Shown piece after piece: positions 19,808 through 35,726 of a stretch of DNA of 64,000 nt. The stretch is taken from the NCBI RefSeq assembly GCF_004151275.2, contig NZ_CP130821.1:1612001-1676000 (forward strand), written 5' to 3'. The translations under genes were made by a program, and so were the position numbers. Position 1 is the first letter of the stretch, and each line of letters opens with the position of its first letter. The stretch is from Flavobacterium dauae (GTDB lineage Bacteria; Bacteroidota; Bacteroidia; Flavobacteriales; Flavobacteriaceae). The notes under the pieces were generated by a model that made no database searches, was not told the DNA's origin, and saw only the letters and a list, made by a program, of their open reading frames with translations.

Positions 19808-20799
19808 TGAAAAAAATAGCCGTTGTTTTATTAAATTGGAACGGATTAGAACTTTTAAAACAATTTTTGCCTTTGGTAGAAAAATATTCTGCTGAAGCTG
19901 CAATTTATGTTGCCGATAACAATTCTACCGACCTTTCTAAACAATTTGTAGAAACACATTTTAAAAGTGTTCAATGGATACAGCTTCAAGAAAATTTTGG
20001 CTATGCAAAAGGCTATAACGAAGCATTAAAACAAGTAAACGAAGAAATTGTCTGTTTATTGAATACAGACGTTGAGGTAACCGAAAACTGGTTGCAATCT
20101 GTTTTAAATTTGTTTAATACAGATGATTCTATTGGAATTATACAACCTAAAATTCTTGATTACAAAAACAAAGATTATTATGAATACGCTGGTGCTGCTG
20201 GTGGTTTTATTGATAAATATGGATTTCCTTTTTGTCGGGGAAGAGTTTTTAACACCATAGAAAAAGATGAAAATCAATACGTTTCACAAGAAATTTTTTG
20301 GGCATCAGGAGCTTGTTTTTTTATCAGAAATAATGTTTTTAAACAATTAAATGGTTTTGATGAGCAGTTTTTTGCACACCAAGAAGAAATTGATCTTTGC
20401 TGGCGGGCATTTAATAAAAACATTACGGTTTATTACTGCAACGAAAGTACCGTTTATCACATTGGCGGTGCCACATTAAAACAATCGAACCCTAAAAAAA
20501 CATATTTAAATTTTAGGAATTCGCTGTTTATGCTTTATAAAAATCTACCTCAACAACATCGCTTCTCTATTATTTTTAAGCGATTGTGTTTAGATGGTTT
20601 AGCCGGAATGAAGTTTTTTTTTAATTTGCAACCTTTACATACTTTTGCCATTATAAAAGCACATTTTGCTTATTATAAAAATCTTTCTAAATTAAAACAT
20701 AAGCAAACAAATAATCCCAAAACAAATTATTTTTATACAGAAAATATTGTGTTTGATTATTTTTTAAAAGGAAAAAAATTTTTAGAGGTCATAAGATAA
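19807..20799 (+). CDS. Family 2 glycosyltransferase
   Basis: A 330-aa GT-A-fold transferase. Seen: IAVVLLNWNGLELL at the N-terminus, YVADNNSTD for nucleotide binding, VCLLNTDVEV carrying the DxD-like motif, and ASGACFFIRNNVF followed by FFAHQEEIDLCWRA, typical of the rhamnosyl/dTDP-sugar-like GT2 branch. It probably adds sugars to a surface polysaccharide. An IS1595-type element begins at 20784 inside the last codons, so the present C-terminus (LEVIR) is IS-encoded. Without the IS the frame would end KGKKFFNQL, so the catalytic part is intact. Confidence 0.88.
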   Translation: MKKIAVVLLNWNGLELLKQFLPLVEKYSAEAAIYVADNNSTDLSKQFVETHFKSVQWIQLQENFGYAKGYNEALKQVNEEIVCLLNTDVEVTENWLQSVLNLFNTDDSIGIIQPKILDYKNKDYYEYAGAAGGFIDKYGFPFCRGRVFNTIEKDENQYVSQEIFWASGACFFIRNNVFKQLNGFDEQFFAHQEEIDLCWRAFNKNITVYYCNESTVYHIGGATLKQSNPKKTYLNFRNSLFMLYKNLPQQHRFSIIFKRLCLDGLAGMKFFFNLQPLHTFAIIKAHFAYYKNLSKLKHKQTNNPKTNYFYTENIVFDYFLKGKKFLEVIR

Positions 20800-21738
20800 T
20801 TTCATATCTTTAAAGTGCTTAAAAAAGTGAGAAATATGGAAATTTTTAAAGGTCAAAATCTTCTGGAGTTTGCTGAACACTTCAAAACCGACCTAGATTG
20901 TGAAAAATATCTTGCACATTGGAAGTGGGAAAAAGGCTATTGTTGTCGCAAATGTGGTCATACAAAATATCAGATTAGAAAAGACTTTTCAAGAACCTGC
21001 AATATTTGTAGTGATACAGAAAGTCCAAGCTCGGGCACACTTTTTCACAGAGTTAAGTTCGGTTTAAGAAAGGCTTTTTTCATTTGTTTTGAGATGAGTA
21101 CCACAACAAAAGATTTATCTGCTTTGCAAATGTCTGTTCGTTATGGAGTTGCAGAAAATACAGCTCGTTTATTTATGCATAAGGTTCGTGAAGCTATGAA
21201 ATCTGATGAAAAAGACGGGATGAAAGGTCTGGTTCAGATTGATGAGTTTACCGTTGGAGGAAAGGAAAATGGAAAACAAGGAAGAAGTTATGCTACCAAA
21301 AAGAAGAAGGTTGTATGTGCTGTGGAGCTTACAGATGAAGGGAAAGTCAAACGTTTTTATGCGTTGAAAATCAAAGATTTTTCAGCCAAATCTCTACAAA
21401 CAATTTTCTATAAACACATAGATAGATCAGCCCAAATCGTTACAGATGATTGGAAAGGATATAGACCAATAAAAGATTTTAAGATTACGCAAATTCCAAG
21501 TAATAAGGGTAAAAATTTTCCGGTACTACACACCATGATTCATCAAGTGAAATCGTGGTTGAGAACAACCTATTCTTGGGTTTCGGATTCTAATATCAAT
21601 AGATATTTAAGTGAATTTTGTTTCAGAATAAATCGTTCTCAATCTAAGCAAACAATATTCAACAATCTTATTAAGAGAATGGTTAGTAGAAATCCAATTT
21701 CACAAGCCGATTTAGTATGTAATTAAGTTATGACCTCT
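20784..21738 (+). mobile_element. IS1595-family insertion sequence (955 bp)
   Basis: Terminal inverted repeats AGAGGTCATAA (20784-20794) and TTATGACCTCT (21728-21738) enclose one transposase gene. The 10-bp sequence AAAAATTTTT is present directly outside both ends (20774-20783 and 21739-21748). It is either the target duplication or an 8-bp duplication with extra matching bases. It inserted into the last codons of the glycosyltransferase gene. Confidence 0.9.
20836..21726 (+). CDS. IS1595-family (ISXO2-like) transposase
   Basis: A 296-aa transposase from the Met at 20836 (a longer frame begins at 20815). The N-terminal zinc ribbon has CRKCGHTKY and CNIC. The DDE-type ISXO2 domain begins with GLVQIDEFTVGGKENGKQGR, continues with VTDDWKGYRPI, and ends with LRTTYSWVSDSNINRYLSEFCFRINR. 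The gene looks intact and the element may be active. Confidence 0.9.
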   Translation: MEIFKGQNLLEFAEHFKTDLDCEKYLAHWKWEKGYCCRKCGHTKYQIRKDFSRTCNICSDTESPSSGTLFHRVKFGLRKAFFICFEMSTTTKDLSALQMSVRYGVAENTARLFMHKVREAMKSDEKDGMKGLVQIDEFTVGGKENGKQGRSYATKKKKVVCAVELTDEGKVKRFYALKIKDFSAKSLQTIFYKHIDRSAQIVTDDWKGYRPIKDFKITQIPSNKGKNFPVLHTMIHQVKSWLRTTYSWVSDSNINRYLSEFCFRINRSQSKQTIFNNLIKRMVSRNPISQADLVCN

Positions 21739-21755
21739 AAAAATTTTTTAATCAA

Positions 21756-22211
21756 TTATAAATTACCCTCTTTATTTAATCCATTATTATATAGTTCTAT
21801 AATTTTAAAAGATTTATAATCATCAAAAATTTCATAAAAATAAATTGGTTTACTTAATGTGTCAAAAAATTGCAGATGATATTGATTTCTGTAATCAGTA
21901 TATTCTTTTGAATCATTTAATTTAATATGAACTTTCGCTAAAAGTAACTCTTTGTTATATTTTTTCTCCTGTTTAATAAGAATTTTAGCTTCCTCTTCTG
22001 GTATGCTCAAAAAAAAGCTTCTTAAAGTGTCTTGTTTCTCAATATTTTCTAATAAAGTTTTCTTTTTATCATAGTTTTTGATCATGTAAATATTTGCATT
22101 GTATCTTTTATGTCCAATATAATAACCTTTTAATAAGACCATTTCATTAATCTCATTTTTATTTGAACATCCAAAAAATAAAAAAACAAATAATACAATT
22201 AATATCCTCAT
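21756..22211 (-). CDS. Hypothetical lipoprotein, 151 aa
   Basis: Not recognised. It has a lipoprotein signal (MRILIVLFVFLFFGCSNKN, lipobox FFGC). The mature part is Lys/Tyr/Asn-rich and ends LYNNGLNKEGNL. The IS1595 element ends 18 bases beyond its stop codon. Its start faces the left copy of the duplicated dnaK 3' end, so before the presumed integration it would have been the gene directly downstream of dnaK. Confidence 0.55.
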   Translation of the reverse strand: MRILIVLFVFLFFGCSNKNEINEMVLLKGYYIGHKRYNANIYMIKNYDKKKTLLENIEKQDTLRSFFLSIPEEEAKILIKQEKKYNKELLLAKVHIKLNDSKEYTDYRNQYHLQFFDTLSKPIYFYEIFDDYKSFKIIELYNNGLNKEGNL

Positions 22212-22239
22212 AAAACAGTTTTTAAATTCTAAATATAAT

Positions 22240-22304
22240 AAAAAACCTCAAACAATGTTTGAGGTTTTTGACACTTATGAAAAAATTAATTACTTCACTT
22301 CTTC
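22240..22304 (-). repeat. Left copy of a 65-bp direct repeat (duplicated dnaK 3' end); candidate att site
   Basis: Bases 22240-22304 are identical to 31691-31755. On the minus strand the sequence encodes the last four dnaK codons (EEVK) with the TAA stop, then the spacer and the dnaK terminator hairpin. Upstream of these codons nothing resembles dnaK, so this copy is a remnant. The pattern is the usual outcome of site-specific integration at a gene's 3' end. Confidence 0.8.
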
Positions 22305-22396
22305 AAAAATAACCATAATTGATTATCAAATATTTATATTATTATGGTACAAATACGATACAAAATAAAGATTATAACTTGATAATAAATATGCCG

Positions 22397-22452
22397 TTAT
22401 CGGCAAAAATATGATAGATTTTAAGTTTTAAATAATTGTTTTTTGCCGATAA
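22397..22452. repeat. Inverted repeat TTATCGGCAAAAA / TTTTTGCCGATAA
   Basis: Perfect 13-bp arms at 22397-22409 and 22440-22452 are separated by 30 bases, just downstream of the hipA fragment. Size and spacing suit a pair of operator half-sites for a dimeric HTH protein such as a HipB-type antitoxin, but no such gene remains here. Confidence 0.55.
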
Positions 22453-22467
22453 TAGTATGAAATACGA

Positions 22468-23064
22468 TCAATTTAATTCTTTTAATAATAATTGGTCGAT
22501 TGCATGTGTTTTTTTCTCATCAACTTGATACATTTCAGCATACATTTTCCAGTTTGCGACAACTTCTATACAGGAGTTAATAATTCCCTCAGGATTCCGA
22601 ATTGAATTTTGCTCTGCAATAGTCAACAAATCTTTTCTTGTAAAATCCTTTCGTTTGCCATTAATACTTAAATTATGCTGACTTACCCATTTACTATCAG
22701 ATCTGTAAGCAAAACAAACATCGTAAGCAGGTGCTAATTTCCAAATTCCCTCAGAGTTCATCAGAAATGAAAAATTCTTGGTATGATCGTCACAGTTTCT
22801 TGCAATCACATTAAATACCATACGTTTGAACATTTGTTCTGCTTCTGCATAAGTTAACCGAAGTTGACGCATAGTTTGAAAAATCTGCTCATAACTGTAG
22901 GATGTGATATTCGCAAAATCATAGTGTTGCAAGGCACATAATGTTTGACTGTGTAATTTTTGATTTCTTTTTATGCGATCAAAGCGTTTGGTCATAAAAT
23001 GAACCCGATTATTTTCTTCAATCAATCGTGATTCCATCATATCAATTCCAAAATCTGTTGCCAT
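22468..23064 (-). pseudogene. hipA: 5'-truncated hipA (HipA-like kinase, C-terminal domain only)
   Basis: A 198-aa frame matching only the C-terminal half of HipA serine/threonine kinases: MESRLIEENNRVHFMTKRFDR, HSQTLCALQHYDFAN, and the catalytic segment VFNVIARNCDDHTKNFSFLM followed by KLAPAYDVCFAY with the metal-binding DVC. Normal HipA is about 400-440 aa, so the N-terminal region with the nucleotide P-loop is missing. Its frame meets a stop four codons upstream of the Met at 23064 and overlaps the reductase gene by 23 bases, placing a rearrangement junction there. It is probably inactive as a kinase. Confidence 0.75.
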
Positions 23065-24127
23065 TAAATTCGATTACCACATCATGAGATTTTGGATATC
23101 CTACACAAGTAAGGACATATCCGTCTTTTATTTGTTTCTCTGTAAGCCCTTCGGTTGTTAGCATTTCTAAATTTCCAGATATGCACTTCCCTGCACAGCT
23201 TATACAATTTCCACTTTGACAGGAATAGGGCAAATCAATTCCCGATTCAAGCCCGGCAAATAAAATAGACTTACCCGGGGATACGTTTACTTTGTGTTCT
23301 TTTCCTTTAAAAAGTATTTTTATCTGATGTTCTTCTGATGCAGGATTTCCTTTTGTGACGGTATAGAAACTTTCTTTAAGAATCATCTCTTTAGAAAATC
23401 CTATTTCTATTATCGTTTTGGTTGCCATGTCCATCAGTCCTTGTGGACCACATAGGTAAAACAAAGAGCTTGTCTCTTTCGTAATTTGCAACTCGTTAAA
23501 AATAGTTTTTAGGTGTGTAGTGTTAATTCTGTGGGTATTTTTCTTTTTAAATAGTCTTGCAAAAAATCCTGTTTTTGGTTGATTGCTCTTCATTTCATCT
23601 CCCCAATAATGAACGATACGAAAGCGTGATGAATATTCGGAAGACCATTGTTCTAATTGGTCATAAAATATCGTAGCAGCCTGGTTAGCGTTCACGTAGA
23701 CTAAGGATACCCTAGAGGTTGAGTTCGCTATAAGCACTGACTTAACCATAGAAAATAAAGGTGTAATCCCGCTTCCACAGGCAATTAGCACGATATGGTT
23801 TGGAATGTTTCCGGGTTTCAAATTGAAATTTCCCATAGGTGGCAATACAATCATCGTATCTCCAGCTTTGAGATTATCATTAAGGTGGTTAGACATTTTT
23901 CCCCCTTTTACCCTTTTTACTGTTACAGATAAGTCTTTGTCGATATAAGATGAAGAGCAAAGCGAATAAGCTCGTCGTTCTTCCTTTCCGTCAATTTCGG
24001 CCATCAGAGTTAGGAATTGACCTGACAGATAATCAAATTGTTGCTCGGGCTGGGAGAAGTGTATTGTTATAGAATCCGCAGTTTCCTGTACAATCTCGTT
24101 AACATATAATATGGTTTTATCGCTCAT
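23042..24127 (-). CDS. PaaE-like ferredoxin-NAD(P)H oxidoreductase with C-terminal 2Fe-2S domain
   Basis: A 361-aa three-domain electron-transfer protein: an FAD-binding barrel with RAYSLCSS near residue 54, an NAD(P)-binding domain with IACGSGITP and FYLCGPQGLMD, and a plant-type ferredoxin domain near residues 275-350 with YSCQSGNCISCAGKC and a distal Cys (VLTC). It moves electrons from NAD(P)H to a partner oxygenase or membrane acceptor. The last residues (NGNRFWN) read into the hipA fragment, so the native end (near DVVIEF) was probably replaced at the junction. It lies in an accessory cluster with a quinone reductase and a DUF4405 protein. Confidence 0.87.
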   Translation of the reverse strand: MSDKTILYVNEIVQETADSITIHFSQPEQQFDYLSGQFLTLMAEIDGKEERRAYSLCSSSYIDKDLSVTVKRVKGGKMSNHLNDNLKAGDTMIVLPPMGNFNLKPGNIPNHIVLIACGSGITPLFSMVKSVLIANSTSRVSLVYVNANQAATIFYDQLEQWSSEYSSRFRIVHYWGDEMKSNQPKTGFFARLFKKKNTHRINTTHLKTIFNELQITKETSSLFYLCGPQGLMDMATKTIIEIGFSKEMILKESFYTVTKGNPASEEHQIKILFKGKEHKVNVSPGKSILFAGLESGIDLPYSCQSGNCISCAGKCISGNLEMLTTEGLTEKQIKDGYVLTCVGYPKSHDVVIEFNGNRFWN

Positions 24128-24170
24128 AGTTATTTTACTATTAAATCAATTATTTTTTAGAGATCAGTAC

Positions 24171-24575
24171 CTATCTTTGTTTATCAAACAGATTTAATCG
24201 CCTGCACCAGCTAAAGAAGCGTTTTAATTCATTTTGGTCTAACTTCTCAAAATGAAAAATTTTATGAGGAAATGGAATAGTATTAGAATAAACACCATTT
24301 ATTGAAAAAACAAGCATTAATTTGTTGCTTTTCTCTACCTTAAAATCTTTCTGAAACTTCTCTTGTTCACTTTCGAAAAATGATGCTGGCGAACAATCTC
24401 CATATATCAATAAAACTATCCAATCACAGCATTTCACAAATTCTTGATAATCAATTTTATTATTATAATTGTTGCTGATATATACTTCGTTTCCATTATT
24501 CCAGAAGAAGTCTGCAATGTCGTAAAGACATTCATCTACTTCTCGTTCTTTATTTTCTATTACTAAATATTTCAT
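24171..24575 (-). CDS. Hypothetical protein, 134 aa
   Basis: Not recognised. It is a soluble, acidic-aromatic protein with FFWNNGNEVYISNNYNNK and CCDWIVLLIYGDCSPASFF. The last segment looks like a strand-loop of a TIR/DUF4062-like Rossmannoid fold, but that is a weak impression. It has no signal peptide. It lies inside the accessory region between the reductase and the DUF4405 gene, on the same strand. Confidence 0.5.
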   Translation of the reverse strand: MKYLVIENKEREVDECLYDIADFFWNNGNEVYISNNYNNKIDYQEFVKCCDWIVLLIYGDCSPASFFESEQEKFQKDFKVEKSNKLMLVFSINGVYSNTIPFPHKIFHFEKLDQNELKRFFSWCRRLNLFDKQR

Positions 24576-24679
24576 TATTAAAATGCTCAGTTATGGTACC
24601 GGGTCTTAGTCGTTTAATAAATATTATCTGTTTTTTTTGTTGTGTGGGTATTTGGAAAGTAAAACGACAACAAATCCAT

Positions 24680-25156
24680 TCACTCCATAATCAAATCAAT
24701 TACTTTTTCTGGGTTAGAATTGTTGTTAATCCAAATGTCTTCTATTGTGGTAGCTTCTTCAATTGTTAATCCATTTTCTTTCAGTTTTTCAGATGCTTTT
24801 TCATAGTTGATATCTAACGCCCTAAAAGCATCATTGATAGGTGCTTTTACCATTTTATTGAAAATGATTAAGTCCACGGGAGGGGACATTCTTTCTGAGA
24901 TAATTAGTATAACAGATAGGACTAATACACCTAATAAAGCAGGAATAAAGACACCTTTTTTGAAATGTATTCTTAATGCTTTCCAATTGAGTATAATATG
25001 GAAAATGGCACATATAATGAAAAACATACCTAAAATTTCGTGTACAACTTCTGTATAGCCGTCAAACAAATGAAAAAGCATCAATAAGCCCGATAGTCCC
25101 ACGACAATAAAAACCAAGGAAATAAAGGGTGTAATATAGTTTCTGTTCAATTTCAT
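24680..25156 (-). CDS. DUF4405-type membrane protein
   Basis: A 158-aa protein with three predicted membrane helices: ITPFISLVFIVVGLSGLLML, EILGMFFIICAIFHIILNW and GVFIPALLGVLVLSVILII. Conserved His residues in the first two helices (LFHLFDG, VVHEILG, AIFHIILNW) fit a haem-b-binding cytochrome-like bundle, as expected for DUF4405. A soluble C-terminal domain follows (residues 95-158). It is 15 bases downstream of the quinone reductase gene, so the two are co-transcribed. A redox role at the inner membrane is inferred. Confidence 0.7.
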   Translation of the reverse strand: MKLNRNYITPFISLVFIVVGLSGLLMLFHLFDGYTEVVHEILGMFFIICAIFHIILNWKALRIHFKKGVFIPALLGVLVLSVILIISERMSPPVDLIIFNKMVKAPINDAFRALDINYEKASEKLKENGLTIEEATTIEDIWINNNSNPEKVIDLIME

Positions 25157-25171
25157 AATACCAAGTTTTGT

Positions 25172-25762
25172 TTAGTTAAATTTTGAAAACCTCTTTTCAA
25201 TATCAGTTAACCATTTTACCCTTTTTTCCTGACTGACTGACTTTACCATATTATAGCTAATCCACTTAAGATTTTTGTAACCCATAGTTTTGAAAACACT
25301 TTTTATCATTGCTCTCTTGATTAAGTTGCCAATAAGCAGGGAATACATTATCTTGGGTTTATTCATGGTTGTTATTACTGTCACACCTTTTAAGTTTTTT
25401 AAAAGTGGTACTAAACCAAAACCCCTTGGATGGTGGTCGTACACAACTCCTGGACTAAGAACTCTATCAACAAATCCTTTGGTCATTGCAGGCATTAAAT
25501 CCCACCAAATCGGGAAAATAAAAATCAGGTGGTCTGCTTTTTCCAGACGTTCATTATAGTCTATTACTTGTGAATCTACAGGTTTGTGATCCACAAATGC
25601 TTTCAAATCTGCCTTTGACATTACGGGATTAAATCCATCATTATCAAGATGCATAAGGTCTATCTCGTGATTTGCATCTTTAAGCCCTTTGGTCACGGAA
25701 TTTAAAATTGCGTTTCCAAAGCTTCCTTCATAGGGATGATTAAATACTATTATTACTTTCAT
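25172..25762 (-). CDS. NAD(P)H dehydrogenase (quinone), flavodoxin-like fold
   Basis: A 196-aa flavoprotein of the MdaB/KefF/NQO1 group that reduces quinones by two electrons. Seen: VIIVFNHPYEGSFGNAILNSV at the N-terminus, HLIFIFPIWWDLMPAMTKGFVDRVLSPG near residues 92-119, and a glycine-rich FMN-binding region. It pairs with the DUF4405 gene, and a decayed Crp/Fnr gene lies upstream in the same direction. That arrangement fits redox-stress control, but the regulator is broken. Confidence 0.85.
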   Translation of the reverse strand: MKVIIVFNHPYEGSFGNAILNSVTKGLKDANHEIDLMHLDNDGFNPVMSKADLKAFVDHKPVDSQVIDYNERLEKADHLIFIFPIWWDLMPAMTKGFVDRVLSPGVVYDHHPRGFGLVPLLKNLKGVTVITTMNKPKIMYSLLIGNLIKRAMIKSVFKTMGYKNLKWISYNMVKSVSQEKRVKWLTDIEKRFSKFN

Positions 25763-25843
25763 TTTTACTTTGCTTAATTTTATACTGCAAAGTTGAGAAG
25801 TAGCAAATAGTTGGGCGATAACAATTGTTAAGAAATGAACTTA

Positions 25844-26100
25844 TCACTTGTTTCGTATTCTGCTTAATGAAACAGATGTAATGCCTAAATAGGAAGCGAT
25901 ATAATGTTGCTGTACACGCAATAATATCTCATGATTTTCCTGAAGAATTTTTTGTATCGGACTTCTGGTTTGTCCTGAATTCGTGGAATCAATAAATGTT
26001 GGTATGAGGCTACACAGCTAATGAGATACTTATTGAACAGGTTTTGAAAGGCTTTATCATTTTGTAATAAATCCATTTCCTTTTTACCAATAATCAAAAG
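25844..26100 (-). pseudogene. Crp/Fnr-family regulator fragment with frameshift
   Basis: The minus strand reads FNKYLISCVASYQHLLIPRIQDKPEVRYKKF (from 26097), then needs a frame change to continue LLRVQQHYIASYLGITSVSLSRIRN and stop at 25844. These match the C-terminal third of the intact Crp/Fnr protein at 29032-29571. The cyclic-nucleotide-binding domain is missing and only an alternative TTG could start the fragment. It lies just upstream of the quinone reductase gene that it may once have controlled. Confidence 0.72.
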
Positions 26101-26158
26101 AACCGAATGTATTGATTTTGTCTCTGTTCAGTCATTTACTGTTTATGGTTCTATTAGC

Positions 26159-26677
26159 TTAAAAAGCTATTTTAGATAACTTAATTTCAAAGTAGCACAC
26201 ATCTGCATTGTGGTAATGTGAAGGAAGATTCACAAAATTTTTCAACTTTTTGATTCCCAAAAAACTAAATCCACAATTTTTGTAGTGTTGAATCAGCTTT
26301 ACATTTTCACCACAAGTATCCATGCGGATATATTTTTTATCTTTCGCAAAATCCTTTGCCCAATCTACAATTATTTTTACAAAATTGTGGCCCCGGAAAC
26401 TCGGGTTTGTTGCTATTCTATGAATATAAAGAGCAGATACCCCATCGTCATCTTTCCAAATTTCTGGGTCGCTGTATGTAATTGCCCAAACGCAGGCAAT
26501 CTCATTATCAATCAGTAATTTGAATTGTCTGTTTTCAGCAATTTCTTCTTCTATCAATGTTTTATCAAATTCCGGCCATTGGTTTTCGGGAAACTTTTCT
26601 CTCTGAAATGCGGTGGCTAATTTATAAAGTCTAAATATTTCAGATATATCTATTTCGGTACTATTTACTATTTTCAT
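26159..26677 (-). CDS. GNAT-family N-acetyltransferase
   Basis: A 172-aa Gcn5-related acetyltransferase using acetyl-CoA. The core motif A is readable as ALYIHRIATNPSFRGHNFVKIIVDWAKDFA near residues 82-111, then MDTCGENVKLIQHYKNCGFSFLG. The substrate is unknown. It is monocistronic in the accessory region, with a decayed stretch upstream. Confidence 0.82.
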   Translation of the reverse strand: MKIVNSTEIDISEIFRLYKLATAFQREKFPENQWPEFDKTLIEEEIAENRQFKLLIDNEIACVWAITYSDPEIWKDDDGVSALYIHRIATNPSFRGHNFVKIIVDWAKDFAKDKKYIRMDTCGENVKLIQHYKNCGFSFLGIKKLKNFVNLPSHYHNADVCYFEIKLSKIAF

Positions 26678-27155
26678 TATCTATTGATATTATTATTGAT
26701 TCTAAATTGTTTTCGTCTTTGTTAACTCCTATTAGTAAGGTCAACTCATCACATTGAGGCACTATAGTGTTATCAATCTGAATTCTGCAAATACTTTATG
26801 CTTTACTATTTCTCCATTTTTTAGAATGCTTTTAATATGTTCTTTTTTACAAAGTTACAATGAGCTGAATAAACAAAACGATTACAATTGTAAAAAAACA
26901 TACTCAGATTCATCAACGATGGATAAACGAATACTGAAAGCTTCTAGTGATATCTTGTAACCTACTTTGGGAATGAGGGCTGTGAATCTATTGATAATAT
27001 ACTCAGTTTAAAAATCATCTAATTAGTAGTAAAAATGCCTTCACTTTGAAATTTCTCGTATAAACAAGGGATTTAACCACAAGTATAACGGATTGGGATA
27101 CTTCGGCTGCCATTGTTTTAAAGACCTTTGTAGGGTAATTAAAATAAAGATCGTA
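26678..27155. other. 478-base gap with no intact gene
   Basis: No frame here looks like a whole gene. On the minus strand, 26890-26975 reads like protein (ISLEAFSIRLSIVDESEYVF) but is broken on both sides, so it may be gene debris. Frames extending the SDR gene upstream (27093-27155) lack family similarity. Confidence 0.35.
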
Positions 27156-27920
27156 ATGAACAAACAGAAAATTGCTTTAGTAACCGGCGGAAGCCGTGGA
27201 ATAGGTCGGGATATAGCGCTTAACCTGGCAAAAAAGGGCTTAGATGTAATTATCACCTACCTATCCAATGAAAGCGCAGCCAATGAGGTTGTCGAACAAA
27301 TAAAATCCTATGGGAATAAAGCAGCGGCTTTACAATTGGACGTTGCTGCCTATGAAGCTTATGCCCCTTTTTTTTCGGAGAAATTATCACCACTGTTAAA
27401 AAACAATTTCAACAACTCACAATTAGACTATCTGATAAACAACGCAGGAGCTATTGCTTTTTCACCTTTTGAAAATGCTACAATCGATCAATTTAAGGAG
27501 ATGATACATATCCATCTGATGGCACCCTTCTTTATTACCCAACATGCTTTACAAATGATGAACGACGGAGGAGGAATTGTGAATATTTCAACTGGGTTAA
27601 CGCGTTTTTCCACACCAGGGTTTGCGGCATATGCCTCTATGAAGGGTGGACTTGAAGTGCTTACCAGATATCAGGCTAAAGAATTGGGGACACGAAAAAT
27701 CCGTGCAAATTCAGTAGCTCCAGGCGCTATCGAGACCGATATTTTAGGAGGTGCCGTGAGGGACAATAAAGACATGAATGCAGCACTGGCTGCTGAAACA
27801 ACCCTGGGGCGAGTTGGTTTGCCTAAAGATATCGGCGCTGTAGTTGCTTTTCTCTGTACTGAAGAAGCCTATTGGATCAATGCTCAACGAATTGAGGTGT
27901 CAGGTGGTAGTAACTTGTGA
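27156..27920 (+). CDS. Short-chain dehydrogenase/reductase
   Basis: A 254-aa classical SDR starting MNKQKIALVTGGSRGIGRDI; the start at 27156 is chosen because the TGxxxGIG cofactor motif begins eight residues in, and an upstream frame adds 21 unrelated residues. Also seen: NNAGAIAFSP, the catalytic STGLT...YASMKGG (Ser, Tyr, Lys) and APGAIETDI. It oxidises or reduces an unknown alcohol or ketone with NAD(P)H. The base composition is visibly less AT-rich than the neighbours, and it forms a pair with the AraC gene 20 bases downstream, suggesting joint acquisition. Confidence 0.9.
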   Translation: MNKQKIALVTGGSRGIGRDIALNLAKKGLDVIITYLSNESAANEVVEQIKSYGNKAAALQLDVAAYEAYAPFFSEKLSPLLKNNFNNSQLDYLINNAGAIAFSPFENATIDQFKEMIHIHLMAPFFITQHALQMMNDGGGIVNISTGLTRFSTPGFAAYASMKGGLEVLTRYQAKELGTRKIRANSVAPGAIETDILGGAVRDNKDMNAALAAETTLGRVGLPKDIGAVVAFLCTEEAYWINAQRIEVSGGSNL

Positions 27921-27940
27921 TTTTTTGGTAAATTTGACCC

Positions 27941-28861
27941 ATGGAGGAAATCATTCAAGTCAAAACCATTAGCGAATTTCACCGTCTGTATAATTTACCT
28001 AAGCCTTTACATCCGTTAATCAGCTTGGTAGATTACGTCGAAATGTATAATGGGGTAACGGTTAAGTGTTGGTCACAGTCATTCTATTCCATTGCATTAA
28101 AGAAGAATGTACTGGGAAAGTTTAATTATGGACAGTTGCCCTATGACTTCGATGAGGGTCTGATGTCATTTTTTTCACCAGGACAGATCCTAAATATTAA
28201 ATTCAACGATGACTTACCCAGACAGGAGCCATCGGGATGGATACTGCTTATCCATCCCGATTTTTTATGGAATACCACGCTGGCCAAAACGATAAAGGGA
28301 TATGAATATTTCGGGTATGCCATTAATGAGGCGCTTTTCCTGTCTGAGAGAGAGGAGGATAGTATGGGTATTCTTTTGGATAGCATCCGCGAAGAATACA
28401 GCAGGAATATGGATGATTTCAGTAAAAGGATTATCATCTCCCAGATCGAACTCTTGCTGAATTATGCAGATCGCTACTACAAAAGACAATTCATTACGCG
28501 AGAACGTAGTAATCACGAATTACTCACAAGATTTGAAGAATTACTGGAGCTATATTTCAACGAAACAAACGATAGGGAACGGGTGCTTCCGACAGTACAG
28601 TATTTCAGCGAAAAATTGAACAAAACCCCCGATTATCTGAGTAGCGTGTTGAAAAATACAACAGGTAGTAATGCCAGTCAACATATACAGTTCAAAATTA
28701 TAGAGGTGGCCAAACTCAAGCTCTCTACTACGACACTTACCGTAAGCGAGATCGCCTATAACTTAGGATTTGAACAACCACAATCATTGAGCAAGCTATT
28801 CAAAAAGGTTACACGCCAGACCCCTCTTGAATTCAGGAGTTTATATCAGCGACATATGTAA
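27941..28861 (+). CDS. AraC-family transcriptional regulator
   Basis: A 306-aa regulator with an N-terminal cupin-like sensing domain (residues 1-170, including FFSPGQILNI and LLIHPDFLW) and a C-terminal double HTH: VQYFSEKLNKTPDYLSSVLKNTTG and LTVSEIAYNLGFEQPQSLSKLFKKVTRQTP. It follows the SDR gene closely and shares its richer base composition, so it probably controls that gene. The effector is unknown. Confidence 0.9.
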   Translation: MEEIIQVKTISEFHRLYNLPKPLHPLISLVDYVEMYNGVTVKCWSQSFYSIALKKNVLGKFNYGQLPYDFDEGLMSFFSPGQILNIKFNDDLPRQEPSGWILLIHPDFLWNTTLAKTIKGYEYFGYAINEALFLSEREEDSMGILLDSIREEYSRNMDDFSKRIIISQIELLLNYADRYYKRQFITRERSNHELLTRFEELLELYFNETNDRERVLPTVQYFSEKLNKTPDYLSSVLKNTTGSNASQHIQFKIIEVAKLKLSTTTLTVSEIAYNLGFEQPQSLSKLFKKVTRQTPLEFRSLYQRHM

Positions 28862-29031
28862 ATGGTTTTTCAAAATTGCCGCTAACCATTTAAAGTTGCA
28901 CGTTAGCTTATTTGAATGGTCTCATATCATACCCACCTTTTTTTGAGGTTACACACAATTTAAGACCAGGTTAACGTAGTGCATTAGTATCACATTAAAT
29001 TGGGACGCTATTAAATTTATTTACACCACCA

Positions 29032-29571
29032 TTATCGTCTGTTTCGTATCCTGCTTAATGAAACAGAAGTTATACCTAAATAGGACGCGATATAATGTTG
29101 CGGAATACGCTGAATAATGTATGGATGTTGCTTAATAAGCTCTTCATACCTTTTTTGAGGTGAGTTTTTCAGATAGGAAAAAAAAAGATTTTGACTTTGT
29201 AGAAGCCGTTGAAATAGATGTTCAAGTATATTATCTTTAATATCCGGCAAACTCATTAATGCTTCTTGAAATTCCTTCAGAGTAATAGTTTGTAGCACAC
29301 AAGGTTCAATCGTTTCTATACTATATAGACTAGGTTTGTTTGTCATAAAACTTTCAATAGACGACACACCACTACCTTCAAAGAAAAATTGAGTTGTTAT
29401 ATCTTTTCCGTTATTATTAATCCAAGTTCGTAAACAACCTTTTTCCACGAAAAACATTTTTTTGGAAATTTCACCTTCTTCAAGAAGAGTAGTTTTAGCA
29501 GGAATCTCTATTTTTTTAAAAAGATGACTAAGAATACTCCACTTTTCGGTATTTTTTTTTGCTTCGTTCAT
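29032..29571 (-). CDS. Crp/Fnr-family transcriptional regulator
   Basis: A 179-aa protein with a cyclic-nucleotide-binding-like beta roll (residues 15-105: TTLLEEGEISKKMFFVEKGCLRTW) and a short HTH C-terminus (QRIPQHYIASYLGITSVSLSRIRNRR). No Cys cluster for an FeS centre is seen, so it is not an FNR oxygen sensor. It is the intact paralogue of the broken gene at 25844-26100 and the two share long stretches at the DNA level. Its target genes are unknown. Confidence 0.85.
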   Translation of the reverse strand: MNEAKKNTEKWSILSHLFKKIEIPAKTTLLEEGEISKKMFFVEKGCLRTWINNNGKDITTQFFFEGSGVSSIESFMTNKPSLYSIETIEPCVLQTITLKEFQEALMSLPDIKDNILEHLFQRLLQSQNLFFSYLKNSPQKRYEELIKQHPYIIQRIPQHYIASYLGITSVSLSRIRNRR

Positions 29572-29839
29572 TATATTTAGTTTAATAATATTTTAATAGT
29601 TCAAAATTCTTATAAATATCTTAACTCATTTAATTATTCATCTATTTTTATGGGTTTAATGCATAGAATAATAGAAAATTGATATATAATAAGCCCACAG
29701 TAGAGTTTAAGTGAATTATTTTTAAGATATTTTATTTTGAAAATCTATTTGAAAAATAGTTTATAAACATACGACTCTGAACTTTCGATGCCGAATAAAC
29801 TCGACTTTCTATGCTGTCATTTTTTACCAAGTCCGCAAA

Positions 29840-30059
29840 TCATGTTTCCATGAGAATAGTTTCAGAGTTTATATTCTCTTGTCTCTTATAAAAATCATTC
29901 ATAAAATCACTTCCCCAGTTTTCCATCATTTCAACAAGGGGTAAAAGCGATTCGCCTACTTCAGTTAAAAAATATTCAACCTTAGGAGGGAGTACCGGAT
30001 AAATAACTTTTCTAACAACACCATATGCCTCCAACTCTTTAAGTTGTAAGTTCAAAACT
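29840..30059 (-). pseudogene. HxlR-family regulator, 5' half lost at an IS junction
   Basis: The frame reads VLNLQLKELEAYGVVRKVIYPVLPPKVEYFLTEVG..., the second half of the HxlR winged helix (recognition helix end, wing and PPKVEY motif), and stops at 29840. Full HxlR proteins are about 100-120 aa; here about 75 residues remain. The frame is cut at 30059 by IS3 copy 2, and the missing N-terminal half is not on the other side of the IS, so sequence was deleted rather than just interrupted. Confidence 0.82.
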
Positions 30060-30128
30060 TGTAAGCTCCCCCAAAAAAAGTACAGTTTAAAACGAGAAAA
30101 ATTATTAATTTTAAACTAAACTGTAATT

Positions 30129-30395
30129 ATGAAGAGTAGTAAATTTAGTCCCACTCAAATCTCGAAGATCCTTCAAGAATTTGAATCTGGAAAAGATATT
30201 AATACAATTGTTAGAGAACATGGAGTTAGCAAAGCTACGTTTTATAAGTGGCGTCAACGCTACGGCGGCATGGAAGCAAGTGAATTAAAGAAAATAAAAG
30301 CTCTTGAAGAAGAAAACGCCAAACTCAAACGGATGTATGCTGATTTGGCTTTAGAATTAGATATGGCTAAGTACATCATTGAAAAAAAGCTTTAA
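30129..30395 (+). CDS. IS3-family transposase OrfA, copy 2
   Basis: An 88-aa helix-turn-helix plus leucine-zipper protein, identical to the copy 1 product. The A7G frameshift run is at 30382-30389. Confidence 0.93.
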
Positions 30396-30430
30396 AGCCT
30401 TGCCATAAAAGAGCTATCATAAAAGATATT

Positions 30431-31270
30431 TTGACCAAATATCCAAAAGGCAAAAGCAAGGCTTGCCGTATTTTACAGACTAGTCGAAGTAGCTTGGAGT
30501 ATCAATCCATCAAAAATGATTCTGATTTAATCCAGCGATTAGAGAAATTTGCTCAAGACCATCCAAGAGAAGGTTTTTGGAAATGTTATTATCGCCTTCG
30601 TAATGATGGAGACAAAGTAAATCATAAGCGATTGCATAGGGTTTATAAACAGATTGGTCTTCCTCATCGTAGAAAGACTAAAAAACACTTACCGCAGCGA
30701 GTTAAAGAAACTATTGAAATTCCTGAAAGTTTTACCCATACTTGGAGTATTGATTTTATGAGCGATAGTTTAACCAACGGAAGAAAGTTCAGAAGCTTTA
30801 ATGTTATTGATGATTTTAATAGAGAAGTATTATTTATAGAAACCGATTATTCACTTAAAAGCAGCAGAGTTATTTGGGTTTTAAAACACCTTGTAAATAA
30901 ACACGGAAAGCCAAAACGAATACGAATGGATAATGGACCTGAATTTATTGCTAAATTAGCACAGGATTGGAGCCAGGTTATGGAAATTGAATTTAAATAC
31001 ACCCAACCAGGTAAACCAACACAAAACGCTTTAATAGAACGTTTTAATAAAAGTTATCGTGAAAACGTACTCGATGCATATTTGTTCGATAGCATTGACC
31101 AAGTCAGAGAAATAAGCGACCAATGGATAGAAGATTATAATTACCACAGACCACACGATGCCTTAGGAGGAATTAGCCCGGTGAACTATAAAATAAAGAA
31201 AGAAAAAACAGTTGAAGGACTGCGTTCCGCTACGGCTACGCCTTCGCCTCACGCAGTCCTTCAACTGTGA
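30431..31270 (+). CDS. IS3-family transposase OrfB, copy 2
   Basis: A 279-aa integrase-core protein identical to that of copy 1, with the DDE residues in TWSIDFMSD, IRMDNGPEF and ALIERFNKSYR. The 3' end lies in the same 18-bp-arm palindrome. It looks functional. Confidence 0.93.
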   Translation: MTKYPKGKSKACRILQTSRSSLEYQSIKNDSDLIQRLEKFAQDHPREGFWKCYYRLRNDGDKVNHKRLHRVYKQIGLPHRRKTKKHLPQRVKETIEIPESFTHTWSIDFMSDSLTNGRKFRSFNVIDDFNREVLFIETDYSLKSSRVIWVLKHLVNKHGKPKRIRMDNGPEFIAKLAQDWSQVMEIEFKYTQPGKPTQNALIERFNKSYRENVLDAYLFDSIDQVREISDQWIEDYNYHRPHDALGGISPVNYKIKKEKTVEGLRSATATPSPHAVLQL

Positions 31271-31464
31271 TAAACTATGTATTATATTGTATAATTATAA
31301 CCTGTACTAAAAAGGGGAAGCCTACAATTAGCTCCTAAAAGAAACAAACCTCCCAAAATAAAGTATTTGAGAGGTTTATTTTGTGGGACAAACTTAACTC
31401 AAACCAATAGGTTGTAAATCAAATTTTCAGATAAAGTTGTGGCTATTACATCTGAAAAATTTAT

Positions 31465-31608
31465 TTAAAATTTTCTTTTTTTAATCCCTTGTGGTTTTTC
31501 TATAATTTCCTTCTTTTTTTCAATAAATTTTGACTGAGAATTCTTTGTTTCTATTCCTACTAACGTTGTCAGTTTTTCTTTATATTCTTGAATTGAACTG
31601 TTTTTAAC
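31465..31608 (-). pseudogene. Short coding remnant of unknown origin
   Basis: A minus-strand frame of 47 residues (with SSIQEYKEKLTTLVGIE and ending KPQGIKKRKF) has protein-like character but no start codon and a stop directly upstream. The Lys-rich tail would fit the C-terminus of a DNA-binding or mobilisation protein, but this is a guess. A hairpin-like sequence (AAACCTC/GAGGTTT, about 31342-31373) lies between it and the IS. Confidence 0.35.
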
Positions 31609-31690
31609 TTAGAAACATTGCTAAAAATAAATAATTGAAGTTTTTTTTAAAAAAAGAAGCATATATTTTTATAAAAATATGGATATAAAC

Positions 31691-31755
31691 AAAAAACCTC
31701 AAACAATGTTTGAGGTTTTTGACACTTATGAAAAAATTAATTACTTCACTTCTTC
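31691..31755 (-). repeat. Right copy of the 65-bp direct repeat (native dnaK 3' end); candidate att site
   Basis: This copy covers the last 15 bases of dnaK including the stop codon (31741-31755) and the downstream terminator. It is identical to 22240-22304. Being joined to the complete dnaK gene, it is the functional copy. Confidence 0.8.
31692..31720 (-). terminator. dnaK terminator
   Basis: On the minus strand AAAAACCTCAAA pairs with TTTGAGGTTTTT around a 5-base loop, followed by a T run. It lies 20 bases after the dnaK stop and is duplicated at 22241-22269, downstream of the hipA fragment. Confidence 0.85.
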
Positions 31756-33633
31756 GTAATCTACATCTTGTGTAGCATCGCTACCGTCTTGGTTTGGTTG
31801 TGCTTGTTGTGCACCACCTTGTTGACCGTCTGCTTGTGCTTTGTACATTTCTTCTGAAGCTGCTTTCCACGCTTCGTTGATTTTATCTAAAGCTGGTTGA
31901 ATGGTAGCTACATCACGAGTTTCGTATGCTTTTTTCAAATCTTCTAAAGCAGCTTGAATGTTTGCTTTATTTCCTTCTGATAATTTATCGCCAAACTCTG
32001 TCAATTGTTTTTCTGTTTGGAAAATCATTCCATCAGCTTCATTTAATTTATCAGCCGTTTCTTTAGCTTTTTTATCCGCTTCGGCATTTGCTTCGGCTTC
32101 TTTCTTCATTTTTTCGATTTCTTCTGGAGTTAAACCTGAAGAAGCTTCGATACGGATATCGTGTGATTTTCCTGTTCCTTTATCGGTTGCTGATACTTTA
32201 ATGATACCGTTGGCATCAATATCAAAAGTAACTTCAATTTGAGGTACTCCGCGTTGTGCTGGCGGGATTCCGTCTAAATGAAAACGACCAATTGTTTTAT
32301 TATCATTCGCCATTGGGCGTTCACCTTGCAACACGTGAATTTCTACCGATGGTTGGTTATCTACCGCTGTAGAAAACACTTGTGATTTTTTAGTTGGAAT
32401 GGTTGTGTTTGATTCGATTAATTTCGTAAAAACACCTCCCATAGTTTCAATTCCTAATGATAAAGGTGTAACGTCTAACAACAATACATCTTTTACATCA
32501 CCTGTTAAAACACCACCTTGAATTGCAGCTCCTAAAGCAACAACTTCGTCTGGATTTACTCCTTTTGATGGTTTTTTACCGAAGAATTTTTCTACTTGTT
32601 CCTGAATTACCGGAATACGCGTTGATCCACCTACTAAGATTACCTCATCGATATCAGAGATTGATAAACCTGCATCGTTTAACGCTTTTTTACAAGGCTC
32701 CATAGAACGGCGTACTAAATTATCAGCTAATTGCTCGAATTTTGCACGAGTTAACGTTTGTACCAAGTGTTTAGGACCTGTAGCGGTAGCAGTTACGTAT
32801 GGTAAGTTAATTTCTGTTTGTGCAGAAGACGACAACTCGATTTTTGCTTTCTCTGCAGCTTCTTTTAAACGTTGTAACGCCATTGGATCTTTACGTAAAT
32901 CAACACCTTCTGTAGTATTGAATTCGTTTGCTAACCAATCGATAATTACTTGGTCAAAATCGTCACCTCCTAAATGAGTGTCTCCGTTAGTTGACAATAC
33001 TTCAAATACACCGTCACCTAATTCTAAGATCGAGATATCAAATGTACCTCCACCTAAATCGTAAACAGCAATTTTCTTGTCTTGCCCACCTTTATCTAAA
33101 CCGTAAGCTAACGCAGCAGCAGTAGGTTCGTTAATAATACGCATTACTTCTAAACCTGCAATTTGTCCGGCTTCTTTAGTAGCTTGGCGTTGTGCATCGT
33201 TAAAATATGCAGGAACTGTAATAACCGCTTGTGTAACTGTTTGACCTAAATAGTCTTCAGCCGTTTTTTTCATTTTTTGTAACGTCATTGCCGATAATTC
33301 TTGTGGCGTGTATAAACGTCCATCAATATCAACACGTGGTGTATCATTATCGCCTTTAACAACTTTATAAGCTGTGTGGTTTACTTCGTCTTGAACTTCA
33401 GAGAACTTCTCTCCCATATAACGTTTAATAGAAGCAATTGTTTTTGTAGGGTTGGTTACCGCCTGACGTTTTGCAGGATCACCCACTTTAATTTCTCCGC
33501 CTTCAACAAAGGCAATTACAGATGGCGTTGTTCTTTTACCCTCTGCATTTGGAATAACAACCGCTTCGTTACCTTCCATTACAGCAACACAAGAGTTGGT
33601 AGTTCCTAAGTCAATTCCAATTATTTTACTCAT
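31741..33633 (-). CDS. dnaK: Molecular chaperone DnaK (Hsp70)
   Basis: A 630-aa cytosolic ATP-driven chaperone. The nucleotide-binding domain starts [21 protein letters not shown] and contains [16 protein letters not shown] and [13 protein letters not shown]. The substrate-binding domain has [18 protein letters not shown] and the helical lid follows, with a Gln/Ala-rich tail ending QDVDYEEVK. It is complete. Its 3' end acts as the apparent integration site of the neighbouring island. No grpE or dnaJ is adjacent. Confidence 0.98.
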
Positions 33634-33730
33634 AATCTTTTATATCTTTTATTTTGTATTTATTGTTTTTTGTGATTTGTTCACGCTTTCTAATAGTCAA
33701 TTGTTATGCCAAGTAAAAAAAGTATAAAAA

Positions 33731-33760
33731 AATGTCAGAAAAAGTAGGTTTTCTGACATT
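33731..33760 (-). terminator. Terminator of the T9SS cargo gene
   Basis: A 12-bp perfect stem, AATGTCAGAAAA with TTTTCTGACATT, around a 6-base loop, in the gap between the cargo gene stop and dnaK. It insulates dnaK from upstream transcription. Confidence 0.8.
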
Positions 33761-33802
33761 TTAAACTCATTTATCATTTTTATTTATGACAAACTGACAC
33801 AG

Positions 33803-35596
33803 TTACTGTTTAATGATTATTTTATGAGACTTCATAATTTCATCATCTCGATAAAATGAAATAGCGTAAACACCAGTTGCAACGTTTATTGAAATTTCAT
33901 TTTTTTGTTGTGCAATTTTACCTTCATAGATTTTTCTACCCGATTCATCGAATATTTTGTAAGTGGTTCCAAACAAATAGCCATCAACTTCAATTACAAA
34001 TTGACCATTAGAAGGATTTGGATAAATGACGAAACGTAAGTTAGGTGCGGTACCACTACCTGGCTGCTCTATTTCGTCTTCATTAATTTCAGCGTTTGAA
34101 ACTAAAACAACAAAACCCTGTGATTTTCTATTTTCATCTTTTTCAAAAAGTGCATCATATTCAGGTATCTTCATTTCATTAATATATTCTCTTTCTCCAT
34201 TGTAACCAGTATCATCACGGTAAACACCGCTGGTTACAATATAACCTCCTTTTTGATCTATACCAAAGATATAATTCCATGCTTCACTCTGAAATATGTA
34301 TAGTTTTTTTAGTTCTTTGTCATTAAACATAATAACACCTTCTTGCCTCCCCTTTTGTGTAAAATCAAGTTCGTCACCATTTTCTAATACTACTTTACCA
34401 TTATTTCCGCCTATTATAGCATATTTTATCCCCTCTTTATAGTAAAACTTTAGTGTTCCACCATTTTGTATTGTTTTTATCCATTTTAAATTTCCATTTA
34501 AGTCGTATTTGCCTATAAAAGAAAGAAATGAGTGCCCATTTTGATATTTTGGCGATTCGTAAAGCATTTCTTTTCCGTTGATATTTAAATTTTTTTCACC
34601 TAAAAACGCAGCACCAATATACAAGTTATCCTTAGTATCAATTAACATACCCCTTGTTAGAGTAAAATCAGGTTTTTTACCCCAAACATACTTTCCTTCT
34701 TTATCTATTTTCACAATAAAATTTGAAGTATCAACAATATTATGAGAAATATAACCCGAATGAATTATATGGTTACCTTTACTCGGGTCTAAATCAAGCG
34801 TTCCTTTAAACATTCCTATAAGATACACGTTGTTATCTTTGTCTAAATCACATTCAAACATGTAAGCAAATGTATCAGAATCTAACACAAAATGCTGAAG
34901 AACGTTAAAATTTTTGGAATACTTTACATAAAATACGGTTTCTTGATAATCTACATGATAATTATTTGATCTGTTTTTACCATCAAAATTAATACTACCT
35001 TGAAAATCACCACTAATATGGTAATTACCTTCTTTGTCAATGATGAATTTTTTAACAACAATGTTCTCTGCAAAAAACCATTTTTCAAGAAATAGAATAT
35101 TATCGACTCTCTTAAACCTACCATTTAAATCATATTGGGCAACAACCATACTTACATCATCATCAGAATAAATTTTATAATCAGGTTTATCAAAGTTAAG
35201 AGCTGCGGCGCGATCTTTAGACAACGAATATATAGCGTAAATAGTATTTCCTTGTATTTTTACATATTGAGGAACAGATAAGTAATCATAATCAGGCGGT
35301 AAGACTTTTACCCATAACAATTCACCATTTATGTTATATTTTGCAATACCAGATGAATGGTCTTTTTGATTGGTAGCAGGATTGATGTAATAATACTCAT
35401 TTGATGAATTTATATCGAAATCAAATCCTTTTTCAAAAGTTCCAATAAAATACAGATTATTGTTATTGTCAAACTGCCATGAGTTTCCTCTAAGAATTGG
35501 TCTTGAATAATTACCATACCACTCCAAATTAGGTTGTGCAATTAAGCCATTAATAAAAAAGCAGTAAATAAAAAATAAAAGTAGTTTTTTAGCCAT
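33803..35596 (-). CDS. Secreted T9SS-targeted beta-propeller-like protein
   Basis: A 597-aa exported protein with a signal peptide (MAKKLLLFFIYCFFINGLIAQ). The body has repeated strands of the form ...YDLNGNLKWIKTIQNGG, KIDKEGKYVWGKK and KYNINGELLWVKVL, like a WD/SBBP-type beta propeller. The last 80 residues are a type A T9SS sorting domain: FVIYPNPSNGQFVIEVDGYL, YKIFDESGRKIYEGKI, NVATGVYAISFYRDDE and KIIIKQ. It should be exported by the type IX system and released or surface-attached. Substrate is unknown. Confidence 0.82.
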   Translation of the reverse strand: MAKKLLLFFIYCFFINGLIAQPNLEWYGNYSRPILRGNSWQFDNNNNLYFIGTFEKGFDFDINSSNEYYYINPATNQKDHSSGIAKYNINGELLWVKVLPPDYDYLSVPQYVKIQGNTIYAIYSLSKDRAAALNFDKPDYKIYSDDDVSMVVAQYDLNGRFKRVDNILFLEKWFFAENIVVKKFIIDKEGNYHISGDFQGSINFDGKNRSNNYHVDYQETVFYVKYSKNFNVLQHFVLDSDTFAYMFECDLDKDNNVYLIGMFKGTLDLDPSKGNHIIHSGYISHNIVDTSNFIVKIDKEGKYVWGKKPDFTLTRGMLIDTKDNLYIGAAFLGEKNLNINGKEMLYESPKYQNGHSFLSFIGKYDLNGNLKWIKTIQNGGTLKFYYKEGIKYAIIGGNNGKVVLENGDELDFTQKGRQEGVIMFNDKELKKLYIFQSEAWNYIFGIDQKGGYIVTSGVYRDDTGYNGEREYINEMKIPEYDALFEKDENRKSQGFVVLVSNAEINEDEIEQPGSGTAPNLRFVIYPNPSNGQFVIEVDGYLFGTTYKIFDESGRKIYEGKIAQQKNEISINVATGVYAISFYRDDEIMKSHKIIIKQ

Positions 35597-35726
35597 AATT
35601 TATAATTTTGGTCCATTAAAAATCAAATATTTTCTTGAAATTTAAGAAAATTATTTTAAAATATCAAGAAAAAAAATAATTCACATAGAATTCCGTATCT
35701 TCGCTTTATTAATTGTTTGATAGATT

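Follow-up and report, generated by a model that had tools for sequence, protein, structure and literature searches.

The 64,000-nucleotide stretch of the Flavobacterium dauae chromosome considered here (contig NZ_CP130821.1, hereafter the window) contains, at the 3′ end of the chaperone gene dnaK, a 9386-bp island (22305-31690) bounded by two identical copies of the end of that gene. This island very probably remains from an integrative element that entered site-specifically at the dnaK 3′ end, and it would be cis-mobilizable, i.e. akin to a cis-mobilizable element (CIME). An initial annotation had proposed integration at this place with regeneration of the gene, an idea now supported by a second, smaller case in another genome, by paired sites, by empty sites in other species and by a tyrosine recombinase linked to dnaK. 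The target gene and the boundaries are as follows (compared genomes and loci bear G and L numbers).

31741..33633, minus strand: dnaK, the host gene, targeted by integration at its 3′ end (open reading frame (ORF) of 630 amino acids (aa); DnaK of the nearest relatives 94-96% identical)
31691..31755, minus strand: attachment site attL, the dnaK-attached repeat copy (EEVK codons, stop, terminator), identical to 22240-22304
31748..31755, minus strand: 8-bp core of attL, GAAGAAGT, the probable crossover region (sites diverge 5′ of the core; on its 3′ side, occupied Flavobacteriales show different codons in element and host)
22240..22304, minus strand: attachment site attR, the distal repeat copy, identical to 31691-31755
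22297..22304, minus strand: 8-bp core of attR, GAAGAAGT, the probable crossover region on the same basis as for attL
22305..22379, minus strand: conserved element end (arm) adjoining attR, TTTGTATCGTATTTGTACCAT...TATTTGATAATCA...GTTATTTTT, with the same layout at the far sites of relatives

The two copies agree over 65 bp with no mismatch, the identity ending at both edges with zero extra bases, and on the minus strand each reads GAAGAAGTGAAGTAA (the last DnaK codons, EEVK, and the stop) and then a terminator. A search of the whole genome of the organism (2,944,828 bases) with the 65 bp returned two full copies, the remaining two matches being the palindromic terminator on the opposite strand, and the sole open dnaK (31741-33633) is attached to the right copy only, which confirms what the initial annotation had said of both copies and gene. 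That annotation had also named wide dispersal of the repeat as a terminator as a finding that would speak against integration. This reading was rejected: the hairpin part (28-32 bp, query positions 1-32) is common, matching at 88-97% elsewhere in many same-genus genomes, but these matches never extend to the dnaK-tail part (positions 51-65). No Rfam family was matched in 20000-36000 at gathering thresholds, and base composition is not decisive, the guanine-plus-cytosine content being 0.39-0.40 at 27-29 kb versus 0.27-0.37 in the remainder of the island.

A search for dnaK ends covered 150 same-genus genomes, of which 110 matched, and dnaK downstream stretches were fetched for 20 of the best matches. 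Among these stretches (10-20 kb each, so that larger islands are missed) and the window, the dnaK tail is repeated only in the window and in G027, while weaker repeats of terminator or downstream sequence occur in seven other fetched stretches. In G027, the two tails lie 2.25 kb apart and the order is dnaK, a hip module (HTH_3, Couple_hipA and HipA_C proteins), the arm, the second dnaK tail, a homologue (59%) of the lipoprotein-like gene adjoining attR in the window, one more gene and rho (rho and hipB were named by eye). The lipoprotein gene of the window (21756-22211) is found at E 1e-4 in two of 398 same-genus genomes (an even sample of a larger group, own genome included), namely its own and G027, where the homologue likewise lies just past the distal dnaK-tail copy; both genomes are occupied.

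In a second set of 20 dnaK downstream stretches, seventeen carry a recombinase module, two are empty and one ends at a contig end. The empty ones read dnaK, terminator and corA (G395), or dnaK, terminator, two ORFs and corA (G365), and in many occupied genomes the far site is followed by corA or by the first of the two G365 ORFs. Upon gapped alignment of 100 bases from the core on, with gap columns left out, the far sites of G077, G083, G210 and G250 agree with the G365 dnaK end at 90-91 of 97-98 aligned bases, versus 63-71 of 85-90 for their dnaK-attached ends. The same trend is seen for G136 against G365 (far 85/94 versus near 72/84), for G283, which is closest to G395 (far 81/87 versus near 64/81), and for G027, whose far terminator agrees with that of the empty-site genome G107 at 92/96 aligned bases (dnaK-side terminator, 79/96). 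Since far copies match empty dnaK ends better than near copies do, it is the far copy that represents the original end of dnaK, the near one being element-borne.

Behind dnaK, the 17 occupied stretches have an element-borne terminator and then up to four genes (not all in each), which encode a 184-aa helix-turn-helix (HTH) protein, a recombinase of 416-424 aa (truncated in G352), a 249-aa protein and a 113-aa HTH protein, both HTH proteins scoring above the cut-off of the excisionase model TIGR01764. The tyrosine recombinase (419 aa) comprises Arm-DNA-bind_5, Phage_int_SAM_5 (SAM-like) and Phage_integrase domains. Scanning of 84,980 species genomes, seeded with an alignment of five dnaK-linked Flavobacterium copies, yielded 72 loci, and in 64 of these, in Flavobacteriales and Bacteroidales, the recombinase lies directly behind dnaK on the same strand, the distance from dnaK end to recombinase match being 757-815 bp in 57 loci and 555-1295 bp in the other seven. 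A recombinase beside dnaK, which the initial annotation had proposed to look for in intact elements, has been found in relatives. As for the eight loci with no dnaK upstream, L225 is a chance match (25% identity), contig ends truncate three more (in one, the contig begins precisely at GAAGAAGTAAAATAA), L218 has its recombinase behind another ORF with the same tail, L222 has it behind a short dnaK-like tail, and in L155 and L182 it lies at near-matches of the core. A second tyrosine-recombinase-like gene is present in the island beside the far site in four genomes (L064, L065, L067 and L074; 435 aa in G083, MLESSFGL..., type judged by eye). In the 64-kb window, tblastn at E 1e-3 gave no match for the recombinase, the second recombinase, the excisionase-like proteins, VapE, Toprim, MobA or the ORFs of the G398 element, and this lack of recombinase, excisionase-like, primase and relaxase matches fits the earlier statement that the island has no integrase and that its recombinase is the missing piece. 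Elsewhere in the same genome there are seven relatives of the recombinase, 29-35% identical.

The conserved element end beside the distal copy (22305-22379), TTTGTnCCATATTTGTACCAT...GTTATTTTT abutting GAAGAAGT, is not dnaK sequence and is common to the window and G027. With up to three mismatches, this pattern occurs at 24 places in 23 of the 398 genomes, own included, and the reversed pattern, used as control, at eight places (both counted by hand). When matches are aligned on the core, an arm of the TTTGTnCCATATTTGTACCAT kind (GTACCAT-type) stands at a near-fixed distance in nearly all 24, GTTATTTTT or a close variant directly precedes GAAGAAGT in nearly all, and the layout is that of the window at the far sites of G027, G206, G398, G400 and G412 and in most Flavobacterium matches. 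G400 (Prolixibacteraceae) and G412 (Capnocytophaga) show this layout downstream of dnaK, and in G411 (Gaoshiqia) the core side agrees and the arm is positioned differently; over 22235-22364, the window is 76% identical to G398. dnaK was sought and found in 21 of the pattern-bearing genomes and shares a contig with the site in 11. In nine of these 11, the site follows dnaK at 39-147 kb on the same strand; in the other 10 genomes the two are on separate contigs, which gives no distance between them. Of 18 further records, 13 have a pattern match and five (G398, G400, G411, G412 and G415) have a site with 1-2 mismatches on the contig and strand of dnaK, 8-64 kb downstream. The 39-147 kb spacing suggested that core genes such as hemA might lie inside; for hemA, the one gene checked in this respect, this was rejected, it being a second copy in G083 and G235 (two matches each, versus one in each of four others). 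The dnaK islands of G083 (L135:4246-5550; island of 39 kb, its ORF starts read by eye) and G235 (L278) carry this second hemA, G083 also having a ferrochelatase-like gene (named by eye), and these genes probably represent an accessory haem set.

The arm also bears on whether a site-specific recombinase is needed at all, i.e. on whether the dnaK 3′ end could have been copied 9.4 kb away by homologous recombination or segmental duplication. Such an event would account for copies that are identical through the terminator, past the probable 8-bp crossover, and for a window with no recombinase. The distal copy, however, shares its first codon with the copies in G027 and at other far sites and has the same conserved arm before it, and a random duplication would not pick that end or bring the arm, which weighs strongly against duplication and makes it very unlikely.

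For site-specific integration, the place of exchange can be narrowed down by codon differences. Among 43 occupied dnaK ends in the Flavobacteriales loci, 36 have the sequence GAAGA(A/G)GTC, and GTC is found in two of 29 far-site rows, in which some genomes appear twice; its prevalence at occupied dnaK ends and rarity at far sites places the crossover within GAAGAAGT. The recombination site proper would be this core of at most 8 bp rather than the full 65 bp.

A mechanism may be outlined as follows. The tyrosine recombinase present in the relatives would join element site and chromosomal site within the 8-bp GAAGAAGT, which codes for Glu-Glu-Val near the DnaK C-terminus, the crossover being placed where the sites part. 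As a result, (i) the last codons, stop and terminator of the element itself would become the new dnaK end, and (ii) the old dnaK end would be displaced to the far side, behind the conserved arm, which (iii) is probably bound by the arm-binding domain of the recombinase. In the window, the left end with its recombinase and mobility genes is missing, as is the 5′ part of hipA, an IS3-type insertion sequence has inserted and accessory genes fill the space, both cores and the attR arm surviving. The sites, the arm, the recombinase-dnaK linkage, the empty sites in other species and the signs of horizontal movement (see below) are directly visible in the sequences. Catalysis, the exact crossover, the order of decay and the descent of the window island from that recombinase clade are what we infer.

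Several observations weigh against this scenario or narrow its reach. The most direct is that the window copies are identical for 57 bp past the probable crossover, through the terminator. Under the plain model, attL should have the terminator of the element and attR that of the host, as seen in the other occupied genomes compared, and with a crossover of at most 8 bp, identity through the terminator calls for further explanation. It might reflect gene conversion between the copies, an element attachment site (attP) whose terminator was already of that lineage, or a distinct recombinase clade that brings a terminator of its own, and CCTCAAACA, common to the window terminators and that of the G027 near copy, speaks slightly for the second and third of these. 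In addition, the usual left end of the element is absent on the attL side of the window, and the empty sites come from other species, none from the same species. Two of the 11 one-contig cases lack a same-strand downstream site, namely G136, where the site is on the opposite strand 1.08 Mb from dnaK (which would fit an inversion), and G365, whose dnaK is empty and whose site, with a differing tail, lies elsewhere; G395 also has an empty dnaK, with a site on another contig, and the tail of the G041 site has no dnaK stop. In Bacteroidales-like loci, GTC is found in only 7 of 21 and the codon difference used for mapping is not clearly seen, so the crossover argument rests on Flavobacteriales. Finally, the 64 of 72 loci describe the seeded clade only, because the scan patterns reach relatives of five dnaK-linked seeds, and the identities of recombinase and dnaK are correlated (r 0.885), so the linkage is partly vertical.

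One of the explanations just listed is that a recombinase clade not yet seen, with a CCTCAAACA-type terminator, acted at this dnaK site, and that window and G027 belong to that clade. This is compatible with an integrative origin of the island, and we consider it rather unlikely. It would explain why CCTCAAACA is found in the dnaK-side terminator of G027 and in both window copies versus CCTCAAGC in G107, G022 and the far copy of G027 (a comparison of five terminators only), and why window and G027 both lack the usual left end at dnaK. It is at odds with the attR arm, which does not differ from that of elements carrying the 419-aa recombinase, and with G206 (DnaK 96% identical), which has the usual left end at dnaK.

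The remnant of an integrative element remains the preferred reading, and the genes inside and next to it are the following.

22468..23064, minus strand: hipA C-terminal remnant, 5′ part missing (HipA_C, PF07804, E 2e-40)
23042..24127, minus strand: cargo, PaaE-like ferredoxin/FAD reductase (PaaE is the best NCBIfam model but scores under its cut-off)
24171..24575, minus strand: cargo, ORF with no Pfam or NCBIfam match at E 0.001
24680..25156, minus strand: cargo, DUF4405 membrane protein
25172..25762, minus strand: cargo, flavodoxin-like NAD(P)H oxidoreductase
26159..26677, minus strand: cargo, GNAT acetyltransferase
27141..27920, plus strand: cargo, short-chain dehydrogenase
27941..28861, plus strand: cargo, AraC-family regulator
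29032..29571, minus strand: cargo, Crp/Fnr-like regulator with cyclic-nucleotide-binding domain
29839..30070, minus strand: HxlR-like regulator fragment ending at IS3 (from translation; family named by eye)
30129..31270, plus strand: IS3-type insertion sequence, ORFs 30129-30395 and 30431-31270 (HTH_Tnp_1 and rve domains), which we take to be of the IS3 family from its domains
21756..22211, minus strand: flank, lipoprotein-like gene adjoining attR (59% homologue beside the G027 distal copy)
20815..21726, plus strand: flank, IS1595-type transposase (PF12762), where gene order departs from G027

The ORFs between the copies (part of hipA, reductases, regulators, IS3) are accessory genes, as the initial annotation had it. 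The hipA remnant breaks off at the PaaE-like gene, and the region around it (22287-23065) is 94% identical to G206, which has there a 428-aa hipA and a hipB-like gene. When island DNA (22305-30080) was compared with 150 same-genus genomes (G206 excluded), 53 gave matches at 1e-20, of about 0.8 kb at most among the two candidate stretches scored per genome, so that longer synteny is possible. Genes of hip toxin-antitoxin systems adjoin an arm-plus-core site in four genomes, as a remnant in the window (22468-23064), as hipBA in G206 (L095) and as split hip genes in G027 and G041, the tail in G041 not being a dnaK end. The IS3 abuts, and seems to cut, the HxlR-like regulator gene (29839-31270 for the whole; HxlR by eye). 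Beyond the lipoprotein gene, the order is unlike that in G027: IS1595 marks the break, and rho is found across dnaK, on its opposite side (G000:C1:1694930-1696570).

Two insertion sequences near both ends, IS3 at 30.1-31.3 kb and IS1595 at 20.8-21.7 kb, together with a gene order that departs from G027 past the lipoprotein gene, could suggest that the segment was moved as an IS-made composite. Yet they are of different families rather than the two like ends of a composite transposon, neither abuts a dnaK-tail copy, the ORFs at 22240 and 31755 show no sign of matching IS ends, and the repeat is 65 bp of dnaK. The usual target-site duplication is shorter than 65 bp. We regard such a composite as extremely improbable.

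Site-specific integration is also consistent with the apparent mobility of the dnaK-linked relatives. A domain scan of 10 proteins from three loci, five of which have no family, revealed VapE-like and Toprim proteins in L224, a Toprim protein and a MobA relaxase in L211 and a DUF5712 protein in L192, a relaxase domain being recognised in L211 only and in none of the scanned L224 and L192 proteins. Identities were compared for 55 of the 64 loci (nine were dropped for a short dnaK or for want of a full recombinase ORF), and in 248 of 1485 pairs the recombinase DNA is more than 3 points closer than the dnaK DNA, e.g. 96.8 versus 81.2% or 99.9 versus 92.6%. A recombinase that is 96.8% identical where dnaK is 81.2% identical points to horizontal movement. 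The relatives, which, unlike the window, carry their own site-specific recombinase, look like integrative and mobilizable elements (IMEs). In L057 (G066) and L095 (G206), an element-type left end follows the far site, and these two genomes seem to harbour two elements in tandem. Downstream of dnaK in G022 (L037:16741-18523) there is a tandem array of 5.1 copies of a 350-bp unit, 99% identical, in which a stretch resembling a tRNA 3′ end accompanies an 82-aa GIY-YIG-like ORF (names by eye).

How does the island compare with known systems? A CIME is described as an element that has kept attL and attR and lost its integration and transfer genes (PMC5704250). In the window, both sites are retained, attL keeping core and repeat and not the usual left end, and no integration or transfer gene was found (tblastn at E 1e-3; no annotated cargo ORF is a conjugation gene, and other conjugation genes were not searched for by profile). 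The island may descend from an integrative and conjugative element or an IME, its attR arm being common with recombinase elements and the genes in common being only those of the G206 hip region. The relatives G066 and G206 suggest tandem accretion, as in CIMEs; the window differs in its dnaK target and its missing left end, and passive mobilisation is a candidate property. Among Bacteroidota IMEs, NBU1, NBU2 and Tn4555 have, according to the entries concerned, a tyrosine recombinase, as in the dnaK-linked relatives, and a relaxase, as in L211, and NBU1 and NBU2 share insertion at a gene 3′ end (PMC5704250). These and the other Bacteroidota entries consulted use tRNA genes or other sites, in contrast to dnaK, a name with no occurrence in that source (PMC5704250). 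The 10K genomic island of Riemerella anatipestifer, also in Flavobacteriales, is similar in size (about 10 kb) and has a tyrosine integrase and a 53-bp direct repeat, but it integrates at an Arg-tRNA gene, and the main text has no occurrence of dnaK (PMC6764341). In Flavobacterium spartansii, a DnaK gene accompanies HxlR and AraC regulators in the predicted island GI-6 (PMC5714932). GI-6 may be another such dnaK island, although the passages concerned do not call dnaK a target. Overall, a CIME-type remnant is a known kind of element, and the dnaK target is apparently unreported, dnaK not having been found named as an integration target in the open-licence literature searched. Mageeney and others reportedly compiled in 2020 a catalogue of integration targets that may list dnaK.

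In conclusion, elements in two orders of Bacteroidota appear to land at a chaperone gene that is highly conserved, and the choice of dnaK is probably due to conservation of its last codons at the DNA level. It is conceivable, although we put this forward as speculation, that the dnaK 3′ end is a phylum-wide docking site where recombinase-bearing and recombinase-less units sit in tandem, hip modules at attR stabilise the latter, and the window island, one of these recombinase-less units, could still be moved by a recombinase acting in trans. Since each integration swaps the dnaK stop and terminator, island ends should be easy to spot in other genomes of the phylum, and even a recombinase-less island becomes traceable to its likely source. 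The terminator swap raises the question of its effect on dnaK expression, and genetic tools for these bacteria might use the dnaK end as a natural integration site.

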